Below, piece after piece: positions 9,363 to 31,900 of a stretch of 64,000 nucleotides of DNA. Numbering within the stretch: position 1 is the stretch's first letter; each line of letters starts with the position of its first letter. This DNA is from Rotaria sordida (Eukaryota > Rotifera > Eurotatoria > Philodinida > Philodinidae). The notes beneath the pieces were generated by a model. It saw only the letters and a list, made by a program, of their open reading frames with translations. It was not told the origin of the DNA and did no database searches. Where the stretch lies: positions 191,410 through 255,409 of the forward strand of contig CAJNOL010000075.1 of NCBI GenBank assembly GCA_905250125.1, given 5' to 3'. The translations under genes and the position numbers were made by a program.

Positions 9363-12300
9363 ATGACGAGTTATTTAGATAGTTATAAAAGTATATTTCT
9401 CGATATAAAATTACGAGATTTTTGGACAATATTTTCTTTAATACGTAATGAAAAACGTCTTTCATCATATGAAATTTTAACTAATAATTTAGTTCAATAT
9501 TGGTCGAAAAACAATCATGATACAAATCATTATTATTTACCTGTATTATGTGTTCGTACAGGTTTTGATTTATTTTTACGTGCTAATCAATTTCCAGCAC
9601 AAAGTGAAATAATTATGTCTGCAATAAATATTCCATCAATGATAACAATTGTTCAATATCATCAATTAAATGTTATACCATGTGATATTAATTTAGATAC
9701 ATTAGAAATGAATATAAATCATGTTAAACGTTTAATAACATCAAAAACAGTAGCTATTGTTTATGCACATATATATGGAAGATGTGCTGATGTATCCGAA
9801 TTAGTTAATTTAGCTTATGAAAAACAAATTTATTTTATTGAAGATTGTGCTGAAAGTTTTTTTGGATTTTGTTCTTGTTTATCAGAAGATAAAAAGTAAG
9901 AAGAATTTCTATTTGAATATAAATGACACAATGATAGAATTGATTATCATCGAAATTTTTCAAGATTATAAAGAGTATAACAAAAGTCTTTGAAAAAAAT
10001 TATTTGTTTTTTTTTTTGTACGAAAAATAGACATATGTACAAATATGATAGCATCTTGAAGTGTAGGAATTGAATGAATGTCCAGCCTTCAGAGATCGAG
10101 TTTATTCTCCTGAAAGTAGATGTTTGTTGTGATAAAGTTTTGAATCGTTATTTTGAAAGAAAAAAAAACTATTGTTCGAACAATCAAAAGTACCACTTAG
10201 AATTTTACTTTTTTTTAGTTTCATGATAATGTGTTGTTTTGTTTTTATATACTATAGACTGATATGGATTGGTCATATATTTACTATTATAATCCTATAG
10301 TGGTCCTCTACCTATATTGTATATCTCAGATTTTTATCGTCGTGTATATGTGTATATATAATTTCAACTGTAGTGCTTTTCAGCATTTGATTTTCATTTA
10401 CACATTACACTTTGTTTCACATATTTTTTTTTATCGTACGTATATGTTACAGTTGACATGGGAATTCAGTTGAGTTTGGAATGCATGTTAATAATATGAG
10501 TCACACGATAATTAATGTTTGTTTACTATTATATTCAACTTTTGTAATTTTAGCGATTCTAAATGATTGGTCGAACTTCTATGATTTATTTTGAGTTATT
10601 TTAAAATACTTACATATAGAAAACTTTCATTCTTAACCATTCTTATTTAGTGAATATTAGAATTTTATGGGCTTTATTCATCTTCTTATAATTAATCGAT
10701 TGATGTTCATTGCTATGGAACATTCAATCAAGAAACACATTCTATGTCTGTTTGTTTTAAATTACATAATTTTTTTTTCATGTGAATCTCTTACAAAAAA
10801 ATGAGCATTCTTAATTCTAAGCTACAATCTTACATTGATAAACTTTCTCACAATAAGTCGATTGAATAGATTATCAACAATCCGTTTATAGTCCAATTAT
10901 TAATCAATCCAACATCAGATCGGCTGCTATTCTAAATAGCATGAATTATTCAATTTCAATTTTTTAACAACGAATTTGCTAACACCAAACATTTAAGCAA
11001 TTATTCAATCCCCCCATATCACGAGCATCGAAAAAAAACTATTTTATAAAAACGAATAGCTCAAATACTCTCGATTTCGTTTCAACCAATCATTTAATTT
11101 CCCCATGTCTTGCAGCTCGAAAAAATCTATTCTATAGAAACAAATAGCTAAAGTAGTCTTGATTCCATTTCAACCAATTATTCAATGTCCCCATGCCCCA
11201 CAGCTCGAGAAAATCTATTCTATTGAAACAAATAGCTCAAGTACTCTCGATTTCGTTTCAACCAATCATTCAATGCCCCATGTCCCGAGCACCGATATAG
11301 AAACTACAATATAAGTAAAATGATGAGTAAGATTTACTTTTAGAAGGAAACAATAAATAGAATGATTAATGGCTTTTCATCAACAAAATAACAGTACGAA
11401 GATACTTTTTATTGTCCGAGAAGTAATACTAAATATAAATTTCACAAGAAACAAACAAGTTTTCTTGAATATGTGTTGGACAAATTTTTAAACAAACAAA
11501 GTGAACTAAGTGATTCCAATCTCAACTAGATTCCAAACTCAACTGCAACATATACCTGACACTGTGTACCAATATATGCCGGGATAACTTTTTATATTAT
11601 GTTTTCTTTCTTGTATTATGACATATAGAGTTGACCTGTTCGTATAGAGAGACCATAGCCACTATACCTTCAGATGAGTTCTATATATCATAATACAAGA
11701 AAGAAAGCATAATATAAAAAGTTATCCCGGCATATATTGGTACACAGTGTCAGGTATACGTACGATAAAAAAAACATATGTAAAACAAAGTGTAATGTGT
11801 AAATGAAAATCAAATGCTGAAAAGCACTACAGTTGAAATTATATATACAAATATACACGACGATAAAAATCTGAGATATACAATATAGGTAGAGGACCAC
11901 TATAGGATTATAATAGTAAATATATGACCAATCCATATCAGTCTATAGTATATAAAAACAAAACAACACATTATCATGAAACTAAAAAAAAGTAAAATTC
12001 TAAGTGGTACTTTTGATTGTTCGAACAATAGGATAAAACACTAACCTTGATGAATCCAGACAAACATCAAATAATTAACATAAAGAGCGTGAGTTAAGAT
12101 TTATAATAGAGCATCACGATCTGATGCTGTGAACATAATGGATTTTTACAATAGTTTTGTTTACCATTTAATTCAATGTTTATAATAATAACAATTTTAA
12201 ATTAAGTAAAACAAAATACAAAAAAGAAAAATAATTAAATAAGACAGACTCATACTCTGGTAATCGACTATTATTTTGAAAAAAAATTATAGTCTACGAG

Positions 12301-14740
12301 AGATTTTTTTACTTTACATATTTTGGAATAGTTTAATGAGCCTAAAGAACAAATGTGATTTTCACATTTCAGCTCCACGGAAGAGACTGTGCTAACAAGC
12401 TTTTTTCCTATATGTCATAATGAAAAGTGTATCAGGTTAGATTTTTTTATTTTTTTGATAATTTCTTTTCTACTAGCATTATTATACTTTTCAAAGTTGA
12501 AGGTGAGTCACGGCAACTTGAATAACTTGTGAACTCGAAGAATATTAAACTATAGAAGAACAGTTTTTTTTTGATTGGGTTTCTAGAAGGTTTTCGAGTA
12601 AGTCTTTAGAAAATTACCAAAATTTTCATAAATCCAACTCAATATGGTAAAATAGGTCTTTGGTAGAGAAAATTGTTATCTTTGAAATTATGCACATCTG
12701 GAATTTCTAACTTGTATTATTGAAAAGTTAGGAGGATTTTCTAGAGATCCCAGATTATATAAAAATAGACGTAGAGAGAAGTGATTGACTATGCGCAGTC
12801 GATTTCTAATGATTGTTTTCAATTTCAAAACGATCTACAATTGTTATATCCAAATTTTCAAAATATCAACTGTTGACATTGTATAGCTAAAAAAATTTGA
12901 AATTTTGAAAGTTGGGATATCTAGACTCAGTGTAGTCAATTACTTCTCTCTAGACCTATTTTTGCGTAATTTAGGATCCATTAACCAAAATCGAGGATTT
13001 CTGAAAAATCCTTCTTACTCTTGAACAATTCGTAACAACAAACTAGAGGGGATAGTTTACCGCCATCCTTGGTAATAATGTTTATTGAATTACTTCATAT
13101 ACAACACATGCTTATATAGCAGAGAGAGATAAGCTAAAGAGAAAAGGAAAATTACCAGGAGATGGGATCACTATTAACACACAATTGAAGCTCGAAATCT
13201 CGGATGTATGTAGTTTTAAAACGAACAATTTTCTCTGATCGTTATGGTAGTTTTCTAAAGAGTCACTTAAAAACAACTTCTAGATATCTAATCGAAAACA
13301 GATATTCTGCTATAGTTCAACGTGTCCTGAGCTTGACTAGAAAGCTGATGAAAATAGTTTCGTAATATTTCTTCAAGGTCCTATGAGTCGCCTTATTTTT
13401 TTAGCTTGAGAAAATTATTCAATAGTAATTTTTATATCTTGCATAATTTCTGATTAAATGAGACCGTTTTCGAATGCTATCGTTCATTTACAATGATATA
13501 GTTGGTTAAGAAAAGTTTGATTTGAATACAAGCCATTATATTGAGACCATTTACTCTCATAAGAGAATGTAATTTAATATGTTTTTTTTGAAATTTCATC
13601 GTACTAACAAAGTTGAATGTTTTTCTTGAGTAGTAAAAAACTATAGAATTGAAGTTTTTTTTTTTTTGTTAAGTTTCCAATTTCAGTAATACAAAACGAG
13701 TATTGCCAACGTTAGAAGTAAAAATATGAATGAAATTTTTCGTCAATTTTCTTTTTCTAATTGAAATTACTATTTGTGAAAAAAAATGAAAAGTTTTATC
13801 ATTTGAATATTGTAGTCTTTTTTTGTGACCAATCATGGACATTTTTTTTTTTGTTTTCTTTAGTTCGAATCAATCTGCTCTCGAAATGTATTGTCCAACA
13901 AGAATAGAAAATAATAATGAACCATCATGTTATATGGGTCATCCACGTTCACATCTAATTTTATATAGTTTTGGTGTTTTGAAATTTTGTACATCATTAG
14001 GTGGTGGTCTTGCTAAAATATCTGATTATAATTTATATACAAAAATGTTAGATATATATCGTAAAGATCCTATTCAAGAAATTCAACAATATTCATTAAA
14101 TGTAAAAAAATATTTTTATTTATATTGGTTATTAAATGCTCCATATGTAATAAAACCATTAATGTATTTTGTACGTTTATTAAATTTAGATCATATGAGT
14201 TTTGTTGTTAATCGTTTACGTGCATTTTCAAAAATTCCAAATCGAGAAGAATTATTTTTTTCATTACGTCGTCAACCATGTCGACCATTACTTGCTTTTC
14301 TTTATCATCGTTTTCAAACATATGATTATAAACAATTAGAAATGCAAAAAGAAAAAGCAAATTATGTTTTAAATAATTTAGAAAAATTATCATCTATACA
14401 ATTAATTGGTATGAATTGTAAATTAAAAAATTTTTGGTTATTTCCAGTAATTGTTTCAAAACCAGATTTATTTGTTCAAATTTTATCTAAATATCATATT
14501 GATGCATATCGTGGTACAACACAATTAAATGTTATTACTAAACAATTAACTGATACTGATAATATACCAATTAGTATAGATGATTATCATAAATGTCCAA
14601 ATGCTGAATATTTAATTGAACATGTTATTTATTTACCTGTTCATTGTTATGTACCAAAACAAGTTTTAAATCAATTAATTGATATTGTTAATAAAACAGC
14701 CAAACAAATTGAACAATATCATTTAAGATCAAAATTATAA
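9363..14740 (+). CDS. DegT/DnrJ/EryC1/StrS-type sugar aminotransferase
   Basis: PLP-dependent aminotransferase of the family that aminates nucleotide-linked keto-sugars in bacteria; its substrate here is unknown. Exons 9363-9895 and 13864-14740 join in phase (donor GTAAGA, acceptor TTTCTTTAG) to give 469 residues. Exon 1 holds the PLP-binding region: RTGFDLFLRA, an IVYAHIYGRCAD strand and FIEDCAES with Asp near residue 161 (pyridine-nitrogen contact). Exon 2 holds SFGVLKFCTSLGGG, where Lys near 218 is the expected Schiff-base lysine, then YRGTTQL and a C-terminal YLPVH motif typical of the family. The 3968-bp intron is the longest in a coding gene here after the one in AACS and contains a fold-back element. 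A polyadenylation signal AATAAA lies at 14994. The family is rare in animals and abundant in bacteria and some algae, so an acquired gene is plausible but not shown by sequence reading alone. Confidence 0.9.
10172..12028. mobile_element. 1.86-kb fold-back DNA transposon, TA-flanked
   Basis: Two arms of about 280 bp (10172-10450 and 11755-12028) are nearly identical inverted copies. Both ends read TTGTTCGAACAATC, itself palindromic, and both are flanked by TA (10170-10171 and 12029-12030), the target duplication of Tc1/mariner-type elements. The internal 1.3 kb has no transposase frame, so it is non-autonomous. A second small hairpin (about 11555-11640 against 11690-11765) lies at the inner edge of the right arm, and an 88-bp tandem repeat lies in the middle. 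It sits wholly inside the intron of the aminotransferase gene. Confidence 0.85.
10994..11305 (+). repeat. Tandem repeat, 88-bp unit, about 3.5 copies
   Basis: Units begin with ACCAAT at 11085, 11173 and 11261, exactly 88 bp apart, with a more diverged copy before them. Each holds CCCCATG, a CTCGA box and TCTATTCTAT followed by AACAAATAGCT. It lies in the core of the 10172-12028 element. Confidence 0.8.
12720..13030. repeat. Degenerate inverted repeat
   Basis: The strings AAAAATAGACGTAGAGAGAAG (left, near 12760) and CTTCTCTCTAGACCTATTTTT (right, near 12945) are inverted matches with about 80 per cent identity, and the similarity extends outward on both sides. It is probably an old fold-back element in the aminotransferase intron; ends are not sharp. 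Confidence 0.5.
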
Positions 14741-22996: not shown

Positions 22997-25900
22997 TTAC
23001 CATTTATTTAATTCAGGTATATTACGATAATAGTCAAGACAATCTGGATTAGCTAATGAACCAGTTGCATGAATTTGTCTACCTTCAATTATACGACGAA
23101 TAGGTACTTCAACTTTTTTCATATTAATTGTATACTAAAATATAACAATACACAGAATAATTAGTTAATCTATTTTCAATAGTACTTTTGTTAAAATGTA
23201 TTTCTTTGATTTTAATCAACTAAAAGTAAAGAAGGAGTAGGTGTTTCAAGGTCATTCATTCTTTTTATTTCCTTTATTAATAATTAGTTTATCTATTTTC
23301 AATAGCACTTTTACTAAAATATATTTCTTTGACTTTAATTAACTAAAAGTGAAGAAGAGGGTGTAGATGTTTCAAGATCATCCATTCTTTTTATTTCCTG
23401 TATTATTTTATTAAATAATGCACAAGTAAAAAATAACAATTTTTACTGTTGACACAAAAAAAGTGAGAGAAAGTATTCTTCAATGTGATGTTTTTGGAAG
23501 CTATATACTGTGAAGGTCAACAGCCTTAACATCATTTTGACAAAAACAAATTTAAAACATCAACAAAATTTCTTGTATTAGTTTCTTATGTTTTCAAATC
23601 TATTGGTTATATTTCAAGACAAATATCTTTATGTCATATTAATCATCTAATCTATAAAAAGATTTAACCAATCTTATTTTTTAAACTAAAGAATAGGTTT
23701 TAAAATTTACATTACATCCCAATAAAAAAATCCTTTAAATTTAATTTAACCTGAAAAAAGAACAACATATAATTTATCTATTGTTACTTAACTGTCTTTT
23801 TTCATTCATTCATCAAAATACGTGATAATAGAATTTCTAGAATGGATTTTACCAAGGAACAATAAAAAAAGAAAATGCGTAATATTTTAAAACAATAAAT
23901 GAATACTAAATTGAATTATGAATTTTTAAAACTGGGTTTTTTTTAGACACATCTCGGTAATTGCATTTATTATTTAAAAGGAAAATATTAGTTAAGTACC
24001 TTGAATTATCAAATACGTATGTTCAAAAATATTAATCAATAGAAATGATTTGAGTGAATCAAAGTTTTAGTTCTAAAGGAGTGATAGTACTCTTTTTCAT
24101 TCTCTTTGATATTAACTTTTAGGAAAAAAAAATCTATCCGTTTTCATTTATGAAAATTAATAAGAAAAATTATGTTTACTGGAATGTCTGGTATTTGTAA
24201 AATCAGTCCCGGAACATGTCTTGCTGATAATTGTTGTCGTATAGCTATTTTAATTCGATCAATAAGTGATTTTTCTAGACGATCCACATTCATTGGAAGC
24301 TAAAATAAAAAATAAAAAAAAGGAAAAAAATTAAAATTCTAAAAAAGACCAATCATCTATGGTAAATTTCTTATCTCTGTTCGTGACATAACTTGATTAG
24401 TTAAACTGCATATGACACCCACGTATTTAATGTAAAAATACCTCTTCTTCTTTTTTTATGAGGTGATCTATGTGCTGCTGATGACTTAGATAATTAAGTG
24501 TTAGAAGAACAAACGTTACTGTCAATATAAATCATTCGTATATTTTCTTGCTCGTGTGCTATAAAACTCGTTCTTCTTACGAACTAAAATTATCATTCAA
24601 AACTACGACAAACACATAGTTATATGCAAGACATGCCAATAATAGCTTGTTTGAAACATTAAAAATATATTCTTTTTTTTTAATAGTTCGATATTTTATA
24701 TTTGAGGAAACTTATATTAATTTATATGCTCTTTGATATTGAAATGTGGATTAATCAATAATTTCTGTTAACTAGCAAATAAATGTAATAAAGATTTTAT
24801 TGTAGAACTTAACATTTAATTGCTTTTACTGTTTTATATAAAAATAACTTTTCAAATGTTTTTCTTATCGTCATAGAACTACTAACACATGATGCAAAAA
24901 TAATAGGGCAAAAATATCGGCACCTATTTCTATTCGATATAAGGGTATTGGAAGAAAAGTTTTTTTTCTTTTTTTACTAGAAAATAGAAAATTTTTTCTT
25001 GTTAATTGCATATAATTTTAAGATACACTTATAAACGAAAGAATGCAACGGAAAAGAAAAGAATCCTTAAAAAGAATCCGGACTTCCCTATAAAAGCAGT
25101 GGGCAAAGTGCTGATTCTTATATCTCTTCGATAGATGAATTTTCAAAAAAGAATATTATTTTTCTTATCAGTTCATAGAAAATTTCCTTTTCTTTCGAAC
25201 AGTTTATAGTTCATATTTGTCACATATTAATGAGTGAAACGAGACGACAAACATTCGCGCAAAAATATTTTGTTGGTAACAGGTAATCACAACTAGCTGT
25301 CGTTTAACAAGATGTTTTCGATGAGTTCATATAAAAATTATAAATTTATTGTGGGAATAGCTCTTTTGTTTTTTTGTTTCTTATCTCATTTTATTTATGA
25401 ATATGCGACAAATATGCATCATACACTATTCGAAAGAGGGAAAAATTTTCTATCTTCAGGTAAAAAGAACTTTTCTTCCGATACCCTTCTATCGAAGAGA
25501 AATAAGTGTCAACATTTGTCCCTTTACTTTTGCATCATATATTACCATCTGCTGAAATCAAGAGTTAGCTTTTTTTAAATTAAGCGAATATAGCTCAAAG
25601 TTATATTAAGTTTGTCCTTCGTTATATTGATAAACAAATTATTTGAACGTATTGTAATTCTTTATTCCGACAATGTACTTTGCACTTAAATAATCCTATT
25701 TAATATTTTACGTCAATCAAGTAGCATATAAATAATTATATCTCACTTAGTAGTATTCGTTATGTTTAAATGCATTCAGATCTGACAGGTAGTAATTAAA
25801 GAAATATGATTTGTATTCTAACTTCTAGAGACTCTTAGAAATCTTTAGGGAAAAAAAATCATTCTTAAACAAAAGAAAAAGATAATCTTCTATTCTATAA

Positions 25901-28900
25901 AAATATAATGTCTTCATATACAATGAGGGACGAAAATGATGAGTGCACACTATGACGCTTTTTTCAAGGTTTTTTTTTCTTTCGCTCAAATTAGTTTCAT
26001 TTAAAAAAGTTTATGATAAGATAGAACACCAATTTCTTCACGTATGTTCGACCTATGTACCAATCAGTAATCTTTTCTACATTCTATTCAAAGAAAACTA
26101 TACTGTAGGTTGTCTAACAATTTTTTTTTTCATTTAATATTATTTTTTAACATGTACTACATGCTGCTTAAAATTAAAATCTGTTTGATGATGTTATTGA
26201 ATAATTCTAATGAAATTTTTTGTACGAACTATTAAGAATTGTTGTTGACCTTTTTTTCGATAGAATTCTTCAAATTAGATGATTAGAATTTGTTTTATGC
26301 AGAATGTATCGTACTGATTTTTATATCCCATTGCATTTCATTAGGTTTTTTAGCATATGAAAAACAATATTTTTTTTTTCTTTGGTCAGCAAACTTATAT
26401 TCTCGCAGAGTAGAAAATTTTCTTCGTCTTTTCTTTTTGGTTAAGAATAATTTTTCTAATTACAAATTTTCTAAGAATCTCGCAAAAGTAAAATCATACT
26501 TCCGCAGTCCGTATGTTCCCTTCGTTAAGGTTAATATGTTTCCTTTCTTAATAGCACTACATGGGGTTTTCCATCTTCGTATTTGTGCGTGATTAACAAC
26601 ACCCAGGACGACTTTTTTCTTTGATAATGACAAAGACACTTTTTCAATTAAAAATATGATAGATGCAACCGATTTTCTTATTCATCGACTATTCAGAGAA
26701 AGTAATAGGTTTTAGCAAATTGATAGAAGAAAATTTTATTACATATATTTTCTCATAATCTCTAATATATGCTATCGAAAAGTATATAAATATTTTATCA
26801 ATCATCTCTTTTTTTTTTTGACACAGAAAGTAATTTTAAAAAGCTTTCAACGATAAAATAATGTGATTATGTCTTAATACATTGCTTTAATGTATTTTCT
26901 TCGTTCATATAAAACAAAAAGTATCATGTAGGATTTTTATTCGTTTAGTTAAGGTTTATTTTTCTGTAGAAATTTTATATATCATTTCCGAAAGCGAAAA
27001 ATTTTTTAAGTATTCAGTTATCTTTTATCATATTGATACTATTTAAGTAACTATAACGTATCAAGTTAGCAAATCCTCAATCTAGGTACTATTTGTTACT
27101 TAAGTGTTAGAATTCATTCAATCATATATTTCTAGTTCAGAACAAAAAGCATCAAATAAATGAATTTGTCAATAGATTCATAGATAATAATCAATCATTT
27201 TAATTAGATTTTTCTTAACTAAGATCGTATATATTTTAATAATAAGAAATGATCACTTAGATAATCTAATTCAAAAAATAGTATCTAAATAACGTGACTA
27301 GAACCCGTAGTGCATTTGCTTTTATTTTTTATAATTCACTATATTCATCCAAAAGAATATATACTTAGGGTATACCAAAAGTAGTGGCACCATTATCTCA
27401 ATTTCTTATAGACCGCTTGAGGAAATTTTTCTTTTTTTATGAATAGATAGTGTCTTTGGTTCTATTTTTCTATGCTATTTGATCATTATTCAACTGGTAT
27501 CATAATAATAAAATTTCGATAAGAACTATTTTTGTTGGAACCTAGCTGGTAACATTAGATCATAACAGGACCAATAAATAACTAGCAGAACTTTGTATTT
27601 CATATTTTAATCTCTAAATACATTTTATTTAAAAAAACAGAATATACCAAAAGATGCAACGCGAAAAGCTCAACAATCTATGAAGTAAAGTTTATTTTAT
27701 AGTGCGCTTTTTCTGTTCAAAAAAAAACAAAACCTCTGTGCGATCAACCTTCGACGCTACGAAGAAGGTCATTTTTTGGTGCACGAATAATTCCTTTTCT
27801 TTGTAGCATTAAAGGTTTGTCGCACAGAGGTTTTGTTTTCTTTTTTGAACAGAAAAAGCACATACTATAAAATCAACTTTACTTCGTAGATTGTTGAGCT
27901 TTTTGCGCTGCATCTTTTGGTATATTTTGTTTTTTTTAATAAAATGTATTTAAAGATTGAAATATGCAATACAAAGTTCTGCTATTTATTATAGGTCCTG
28001 TTATGATCTAATGTTACCAGCTAGGTTTCAACAAAAATAGTTCTTATCGAAATTTTATTATTATGATACCAGTTGAATAATGATCAAATAGCATAGAATA
28101 ATAGAACGAAAGACACTCCATCTATTCATAAAAAAAGAAAAATTTCCTCAAGCGGTCTATAACAAATTGAGATAATGGTGCCACTACTTTTGGTATGCCC
28201 TAAGTATATATATGTCGTATCGAAGTTACACCGGTCGACGAAGTTATAACTTCGTCAACATTCTTGACGAAGTTATAACTTCGTCGATCGATATTGACGA
28301 AGTTACAACTTCGTCGTATAAACGCGACGAAGTTATAACTTCGACGCTCACAGTTATCGAAGTTATAACTTCGACAGAGAAACTTGTCGAAGTTATTTTT
28401 AATTCACTTATCAATAAGTAATTTATTAAACTAAGTATTTTACTGTTGAATATATGATTAAAAAATAAAATTTTTATTAATAAATATTCATTTTTTTTAT
28501 AATATTGTGAAATAAATGAACATTTATTAGTAAAAATGTTATTTTTTGATCATGTATTGAACAGTAAAGTGCTCAGTTTAATAAATTATTTATTGATAAG
28601 TGAATCAAAAATAACTTCGATAACTATGAGCGTCGAAGTTATAACTTCGTCACATTTATACGACGAAGTTGTAACTTCGTGAATATGAGACGACGAAGTT
28701 ATAACTTCGTCGACCGGTGTAACTTCGATACGACATATACATATATATATATGTATTTATATGTATAGAAAAAGACAAGATTCATTTCATAAAGTATTTC
28801 TTCTTTATTATTACAATTTCTTTCGTCTAATTGATACTAAGAAATAGTTGACTATATTTCATTGAAAGATTCTTGTATTATTATTACTTCATTCATGTAA

Positions 28901-31900
28901 GTATAAGAAATAAAAAGACAAAAAAACCACATCGAGATTATTATATTCTTTAGAATGAATAACACATGCATAATTTTTCTATTATTTTTTGCACTTGTTT
29001 CATGTGCATTATCATCTTATCTTGACATTCCACCACCACCTGAACGACCATTACGTTTCAAAACAAGAGAACAAATTGAAAATTATCTTAAAGCTATTAA
29101 AGATTATTATGATGCATTTAAAATTAAACTTGTTCGTCGAGATAGTCCTTTATATGATATATATTCACAATTAGACAAATCAAACAATGATGATCATAAT
29201 TATGACGATAATAATGATATTGATGATGTTGATTTAAATAATTATATTAAAGAATCACCAAGAAATTCTTATATTCAACGACGATATAGAATCAATCGAT
29301 TGATGAATATTTAAGAATTTAGTTTATGATTATAAAAAAAAAATAACTACAGAAAAAATAAAAATTCTATGTGTTGATTTCAATTATATTTCATCAAAAA
29401 ATTTTTTTTGTTTGTCTTTTTCTATTAATCAACTCATCAAATATTAACGTATTCAAATAAAAGAGAAATTATTTGACAATTTTTTTTTTGTTAACTTACT
29501 TTAAGAAAAAGTATAACACGTTCATCACCAGTTGAGGGATTTCGTTGTGCAACACATAAACTATCGAGAATTTCACCATTAAATTGATCAACAATGGAAT
29601 AGATTTCAGCTGAACCAAAACGAATACCATTAGGATTAAGAGTACCATCACTAAAAAAACAAATAATGACTTGATTTTTTTTTTGTAAAGTCAAAGTTTT
29701 AATAGACAAACCTTCGACCAAGCATAACAATGCCTCGTGTAACTGGATTAATAAGACAAAAATCAGAATGATTCCATATGCCTAGATAAAATAAAAATCA
29801 GAAAAAAATTATTTTGAAATACAAAGATTCAATAGAAAATTAAACTTGAAAATTTATCAAAATAGGCTCGATGATATTTTTCACCATTTGGATCATTCCA
29901 AAAACAAACAGGCATCGAAGGAAATGGTTTAACACAAACAAGTTCACCACTATCACCTTCCAATTTTTTTCCTTCAAATAATAGATCATCAAATGTAAAA
30001 ATAAAGATAAAAAAAGACTAATTCATTTTCATACCTTCTTCAGACCAACATTCAATAGCCATAGCTAAATGTGGAGATTGTATTTCTCCTCGATGAACAT
30101 TCAATGTTGGATTAACACCAGCAAAACATGAACTAAAGAGAAACAAAACAAAACAAAACAAAAAAAGAAATTATATAATACATCAGAGATTTATCCTATA
30201 CATAATATCTGTTCCACCAGTGATTGATCCTAATAAAATATCTGTTTTGATATTTGTATAAACATAATCAAATATTCGACTATGTAATGGTGAACCAGTT
30301 GATAAAATAGTATGCAATTTTTCAAGTTTATTATGTGTTTGAGGTGTTATATGATGTTCTTCTAATGCTGTTAAATAACGAGCACTGCAGCCGAATATTG
30401 TTATGCTAAACAGAATTTAAACTTCTTTATTTTTTTTTATCTATGAATTTATCAGAATACAATAATATAACAAAATAATAGTTTCATAAATGAGATCAAT
30501 ATCAAGATTATCAATATGTTTCTAACGAGGAAATCATCATAATTTGAAAATCATCGTTGATTTTGAACTCTATACATAACGTAGATTCAAATGAGACCTT
30601 AAAAACTTCAAAAAAAGGTAAAAGCTCCTAGGTCTTTTCTACAAAGTTATATCCATTTTACTGAAATTTTACCCTATAGCACGGTATGTATAAAAGAATC
30701 GAATGATAATATTTTTACTATAGGTAGGCCTACTTGTGATGAAAATATCCTGAAAATTTCAGTTCAAAATAATGTTCCCTTCACAAGATAATGAATTCCA
30801 AAAAAAAAACATTAAATTCTATAATCTTTCGTTGGAATATAAGTGTTTTTTTCGGAATTCAACATCTCGTGCAGGCCTATCGACGGGCAAAATATCATCA
30901 TTTGATTCTTTTGTATATACCGTGCTATAGGCTAAGATTTTAGTAAAACGACTTTCACATTGTGGAGAAGGTGGTGCCCGTCGGATTAGTCTGGACCCGG
31001 GTCCGAAAATTTTAGGTTCGATGGGCTCTACGCTTTTGAGTAATTTATAGCGTGCACTAGTCACCGAATAAAAGTGGCTATTCAATTCCGATTAGAGAAT
31101 TTCATGGAAACCACGGAAGTAGGATTCGATCAGAACCGGATTCAAAATTTTTGAGCCCGACGGGATCTAAAGGAGCGGCTAGAGACCCTTATCTTTTTGA
31201 GGTTTCTAATACATAATTTGGGTTTACGTTATGCACAGAGTTCCAACTTAAAAGCAATTTTCAAGCTAGAAAGGTTCCCTCGTAAGTAAATGATGAAGTA
31301 TACGAAAAGTAATGATCATGAATGTTTTGTGGGAGTTAGAGTCCACCCGATTGATTTCGAACTCGAACCATTCCAGTCTATGGCCGAAATTTCTCTATTA
31401 AATGGGTTTGAATGGGAAAATTTTAGATCCGGCAGGCTCTACTGAGAATATCAGATTATGCAAAATATCTTCATTTAATTGTTTAATAATCTGAATCATC
31501 TATATATGCTAAGTAATTCAAACAATGAGACATATCGATTGGTATTGCTGAAAGCTTTCATTAAAAATCTAAACATTAGACATTGAAAAATATTCATTCG
31601 TTTTCGCTAGAATTTCCTACAATCTTTGATTTAACTATCATCAAACTATACGATAAGGCATGAAATTTCTTTTTCTTTTAAACCTTTTGTTTGACATCAA
31701 TTATTTTACTTTTTGAGAAACTTTCTTTATGAGTTATCTTTCCATGAATCTGCGGTGTAATTATTATATAACATGAATAGAAATATGTGGAATCACTTTT
31801 GATCTTTCATATACTCTCAAACTATATTTATATAAATATGTTTGAAATCAAACATTAGATTTTTCATTTTCTAGATATGTTTTTCGTTTTAATAATTCTA

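Follow-up and report, generated by a model that had tools for sequence, protein, structure and literature searches.

A probable NPY/NPF-family prepropeptide gene with an unamidated KIKLV end in an AACS intron of Rotaria sordida

Analysis of a 64,000-nt stretch of Rotaria sordida DNA, hereafter the window, led to a single coding exon lying within an intron of AACS. It is probably a genuine prepropeptide gene of the NPY/NPF superfamily, likely to have diverged after duplication, and it would give rise to an unamidated peptide ending in KIKLV. NPF and NPY form one of the most ancient systems by which animals control feeding, and their amidated RxRF/Y end is held to activate the receptor. Should the gene be maintained without this end, it would show that a PP-fold can be retained for a different use, and the locus would serve as a natural experiment on the part of the hormone that selection preserves; should it be merely a decaying copy, the finding is a minor one.

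Gene structure, coding character and genomic setting

The putative NPF-like CDS is located at 28955–29314 of the + strand and encodes a 119 aa protein, followed by a stop codon, in one exon. The coordinates, frame and translation that had been given for it in an earlier note all proved exact when compared with the ORF listing and the translation. The translated parts follow each other in the order signal peptide, proline-rich arm and helix, KIKLV and RR. Specifically, a signal peptide of 20 residues (28955–29014, + strand) is predicted by hydropathy and the -3,-1 rule, with cleavage after A18 or S20 and the mature peptide following directly; the best 11-residue Kyte-Doolittle mean is 3.39 at residues 5–15 and no later stretch is comparable. 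The predicted mature peptide (29015–29134, + strand) is unamidated and comprises 40 residues (S21–V60), which is the length given by cleavage after S20, while the 39 residues proposed earlier hold if it starts at Y22. It is followed by the dibasic RR processing site (29135–29140, + strand) and by an acidic C-flanking peptide, DSPLYD...RLMNI (29141–29311, + strand). This tail consists of an Asp/Asn-rich part and then a basic end, where cleavage at a second dibasic site could free YRINRLMNI.

Judged by its codon choice, the whole ORF appears to be coding, the core and the acidic tail alike. Synonymous-codon scores were calculated with 507 AACS codons as the reference and were compared with non-coding windows taken from the same AACS intron. 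The complete ORF scored +25.4 bits (-24 ± 10 for 1014 non-coding windows, 0 as high), the mature part +16.1 bits (about -9 in the non-coding windows, none as high) and the tail +8.7 bits (-11.7 ± 7.1, none as high). The GC content at the three codon positions is 0.40/0.28/0.09 for the ORF and 0.49/0.37/0.14 for AACS. Moreover, the 119 codons stay open in DNA of 72% A+T, and 400 Markov simulations of the 5.2-kb intron produced an ORF of this size once.

Upstream of the ATG, a candidate 57-nt 5'UTR intron (28897–28953, + strand; CAT|GTAAGTA ... TATATTCTTTAG|A) stops 1 base before the start codon. With splice-site matrices built from AACS introns, the donor at 28897 and the acceptor at 28953 were both the best of the region, an equally good pair was found before 3 of the 2601 ATGs of the window, and the length resembles that of several neighbouring introns. 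A leader intron 5' of the ATG is plausible on these sequence features, and the acceptor at 28953 could equally take spliced-leader trans-splicing.

AACS is encoded on the minus strand, where its exons were followed between 33.79 kb and 29.50 kb; the next exon found is located at about 24.3–24.2 kb. The NPF-like gene is established in opposite orientation within the ~5.2 kb intron between the flanking exons at 29500 and ~24300 (24300–29499, minus strand), confirming the antisense nesting in AACS that had been described before. Two palindromic foldback elements sit in the same intron, beside the gene. One of them (28205–28743) is built of copies of the perfect palindrome CGAAGTTATAACTTCG at a spacing of 30 bp, of which 8 with at most 1 mismatch were counted, whereas chance would give none; the half-sites look like loxP arms, which may be coincidental. 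The second large foldback (27357–28211) adjoins it and has inverted arms of 97–155 nt that are 85–96% complementary. Elsewhere in the window, a DegT/DnrJ/EryC1 aminotransferase (PF01041, E 2e-19) was detected at 9363–9899; this family is mainly bacterial and the gene was possibly acquired horizontally. Its apparent second half, recognized by eye and having no Pfam match, lies 3.9 kb on at 13835–14740, and the two halves look as if they had been separated by an insertion. Rfam and tRNA scans of the 64-kb window returned nothing.

Family membership and the C-terminal end

The Pfam-A search (24736 families) matched the ORF with PF00159 (Hormone_3, the pancreatic hormone/NPY/NPF family) and with no other family. 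The match covers ORF residues 26–52, corresponding to profile positions 1–27 of 36, and breaks off where RxRF-G is expected next. The whole ORF gave an E-value of 1.3e-4 and a score of 22.3 bits, while core segments gave E-values of 1.3e-5 to 2.8e-5 and 24.5–25.5 bits, all of them under the curated gathering cut-off of 28.7. When RPRFGKR was grafted in silico onto the core, the score rose to 34.6 bits and passed the cut-off, so that the C-terminal end partly accounts for the sub-threshold native score. A molluscan-type NPF scored 68.6 bits as a control, and none of 8 composition-matched shuffles of the core matched PF00159. Within profile positions 1–27, the core of the PP-fold is present as a PxxPxxP arm and a YxxxxxxY helix; the alignment of single residues (prolines and helix tyrosines) to family positions was made by eye. 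The profile search recommended in the earlier note was therefore positive for the family at E 1.3e-4, yet under the curated cut-off, and the NPF/NPY-type precursor proposed there is supported by the core match, the signal peptide, the dibasic site and the negative shuffles. No relatives of the ORF were found in viral and prokaryote sequence collections, no second copy of the gene is present inside the 64-kb window, and the open-access papers that were searched contained nothing useful about NPF of rotifers.

In place of the C-terminal RxRF/Y the peptide carries KIKLV. The 119-aa precursor contains no Gly, and the ORF has no Gly codon that could provide the amidation donor ahead of RR. The earlier description of a lost RF-amide end holds as far as this absence is concerned, while descent from RPRFG does not follow, because the resemblance is not above chance. 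Although 4 of the 5 KIKLV codons differ by one base from RPRFG codons, the likeness of the two motifs has a p of ~0.21 by BLOSUM and ~0.10 by nucleotide distance, and an origin of KIKLV by point changes is possible at no more than the chance level.

The AlphaFold model of the single peptide, built from one sequence, has an arm that is extended at the N-terminus and a single helix (model residues 18–37), with a mean pLDDT of 76.6 and a pTM of 0.43. A fold search with this model gave no match with E < 1 and no solved NPY-family hormone among the matches; with a model that comes from a single sequence, this does not point to another fold. Among the solved structures listed, one alone extends over most of the model, namely 5lo2 (Z 3.5, rmsd 2.2 over 33 residues, Foldseek E 8.7), a designed miniprotein of 34 residues with a polyproline-helix hairpin. 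The predicted structure is weakly consistent with a PP-fold.

Alternative explanations and proposed mode of action

In NPF and NPY genes alike, the second Arg codon of RxRF is interrupted by an intron after its second base (PMC8536682), and the caution previously expressed, that an intron often splits off the last residues in NPY-family genes, was right in principle. An ordinary NPF gene receiving its RF-amide end by splicing to another exon would depend on such a junction, and for the present locus this is highly improbable. There is no GT donor at the place of the phase-2 intron, the frame running on through a tail that is itself coding-like, and the donors close by score poorly (3.5 at 29132, a value that 17% of all GT reach or exceed; below zero at 29136 and 29145). 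From 28717 to 29535 the + strand contains neither a GG nor a GT donor with a preceding G, hence no GT-AG junction inside this region can make a Gly codon and none is encodable before 29536. Downstream of the gene, the window has no phase-2 exon beginning with F/Y-G-[KR]. A rescue scan, in which GT and GC donors at 29085–29150 were combined with all AG acceptors within 20 kb, gave spurious junctions only, which had poor acceptor scores or encoded the wrong ending, and none offered a believable route to a [hydrophobic]-G-[KR][KR] sequence; the single KIKL-GRR junction was 18 kb off and had an acceptor score of -5.8. A frameshift or assembly indel hiding the end was likewise rejected, since the other two frames have no RxRF-G and no GG is present, and the idea that KIKLV and the tail are a former intron, now read through, is disfavoured by the coding-like codons of the tail. 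The alternative exon that had been suggested to restore the usual end is thus refuted within the window.

It is also improbable, although to a lesser degree, that the ORF has no relation to NPF and encodes another small secreted protein with a chance proline run and an amphipathic helix. The core E-value of about 2e-5 among 24736 families without a competitor, the failure of shuffled cores to match, and the expected succession of signal peptide, core and dibasic site all argue against it, whereas the sub-threshold Pfam score, the unclear fold match and a phmmer search against PDB sequences, which gave just weak FIS matches and no NPY-family chain, could be cited in its favour. More serious, but in our opinion still rather unlikely, is that an ordinary NPF gene was duplicated and the copy is now decaying, as an early pseudogene or a retrocopy, with the C-terminal end gone and a working NPF elsewhere in the genome. 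The missing RxR|F intron, otherwise conserved, fits a copy made from mRNA, and the location in the intron of another gene next to foldback elements agrees with it, as do the absence of the pharmacophore and the distance of one base between most KIKLV codons and those of RPRFG. A frame of this length open in A+T-rich DNA and coding-like codon choice in both core and tail argue against decay; the plausible leader intron speaks against a simple retrocopy, and the changes seem to affect the receptor-binding end, the fold being spared. The retention of fold positions beside a wholly different activating end leans against random decay, an argument drawn from one sequence and from family positions aligned by eye. 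A selectively maintained, secreted and unamidated NPY/NPF ligand with a PP-fold, acting on another receptor or naturally antagonizing that of NPF, can be put forward tentatively.

Under the reading that we prefer, that of a genuine but diverged duplicate of an NPY/NPF-family gene, the prepropeptide would be secreted, and cleavage at the signal site and at RR would leave an unamidated peptide of ~40 residues, the polyproline arm of which may fold back on the helix, so that the fold-forming part would be retained in the absence of the receptor-activating RxRF-amide end. NPY that is not amidated gives no signalling at the human Y1 receptor, where R33A and R35A do more damage than any other change of NPY and where the NPY amide contacts Q120 (PMC8844075). 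Since non-amidated NPY is inactive at Y1 and R33 and R35 are critical, a free-acid KIKLV peptide should not be a classical agonist and is probably unable to activate a classical NPF receptor. If used, it would act via a different site, via a different receptor or by binding only partially; either it has another target, or it binds weakly, or the gene is a recent relic.

Comparison with known systems

A close parallel in organization is lophotrochozoan NPF, represented by the abalone Hdh-NPF (PMC8536682), with which the present gene shares a signal peptide of ~20 aa, a mature peptide of ~39–40 aa near the start of the precursor, the PxxP arm, the paired-tyrosine helix, the dibasic site and a C-flanking peptide. 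Unlike Hdh-NPF, it ends in KIKLV and not in RPRF, and it lacks both the amidation Gly and the RxR|F intron (PMC8536682). Concerning vertebrate NPY, PYY and PP (PF00159), the likeness extends over profile positions 1–27, with the proline spacing and the helix tyrosines compared by eye, whereas positions 28–36 are unmatched in the present peptide and the amide is missing. The absent end has a counterpart in cattle, where seminalplasmin/PYY2 is a PYY-derived secreted peptide that lost its NPY-type end after duplication. Both peptides are devoid of that end, but seminalplasmin is mammalian and of independent origin. One source lists the cattle peptide as 'seminalplasmin or peptide YY2' (PMC2698874). 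Finally, the non-amidated WI peptides of Platynereis, which are related to MIP/Wamides (PMC3890597), show that an amidated neuropeptide family can have a sister without the amide, although both the family and the fold differ from those described here.
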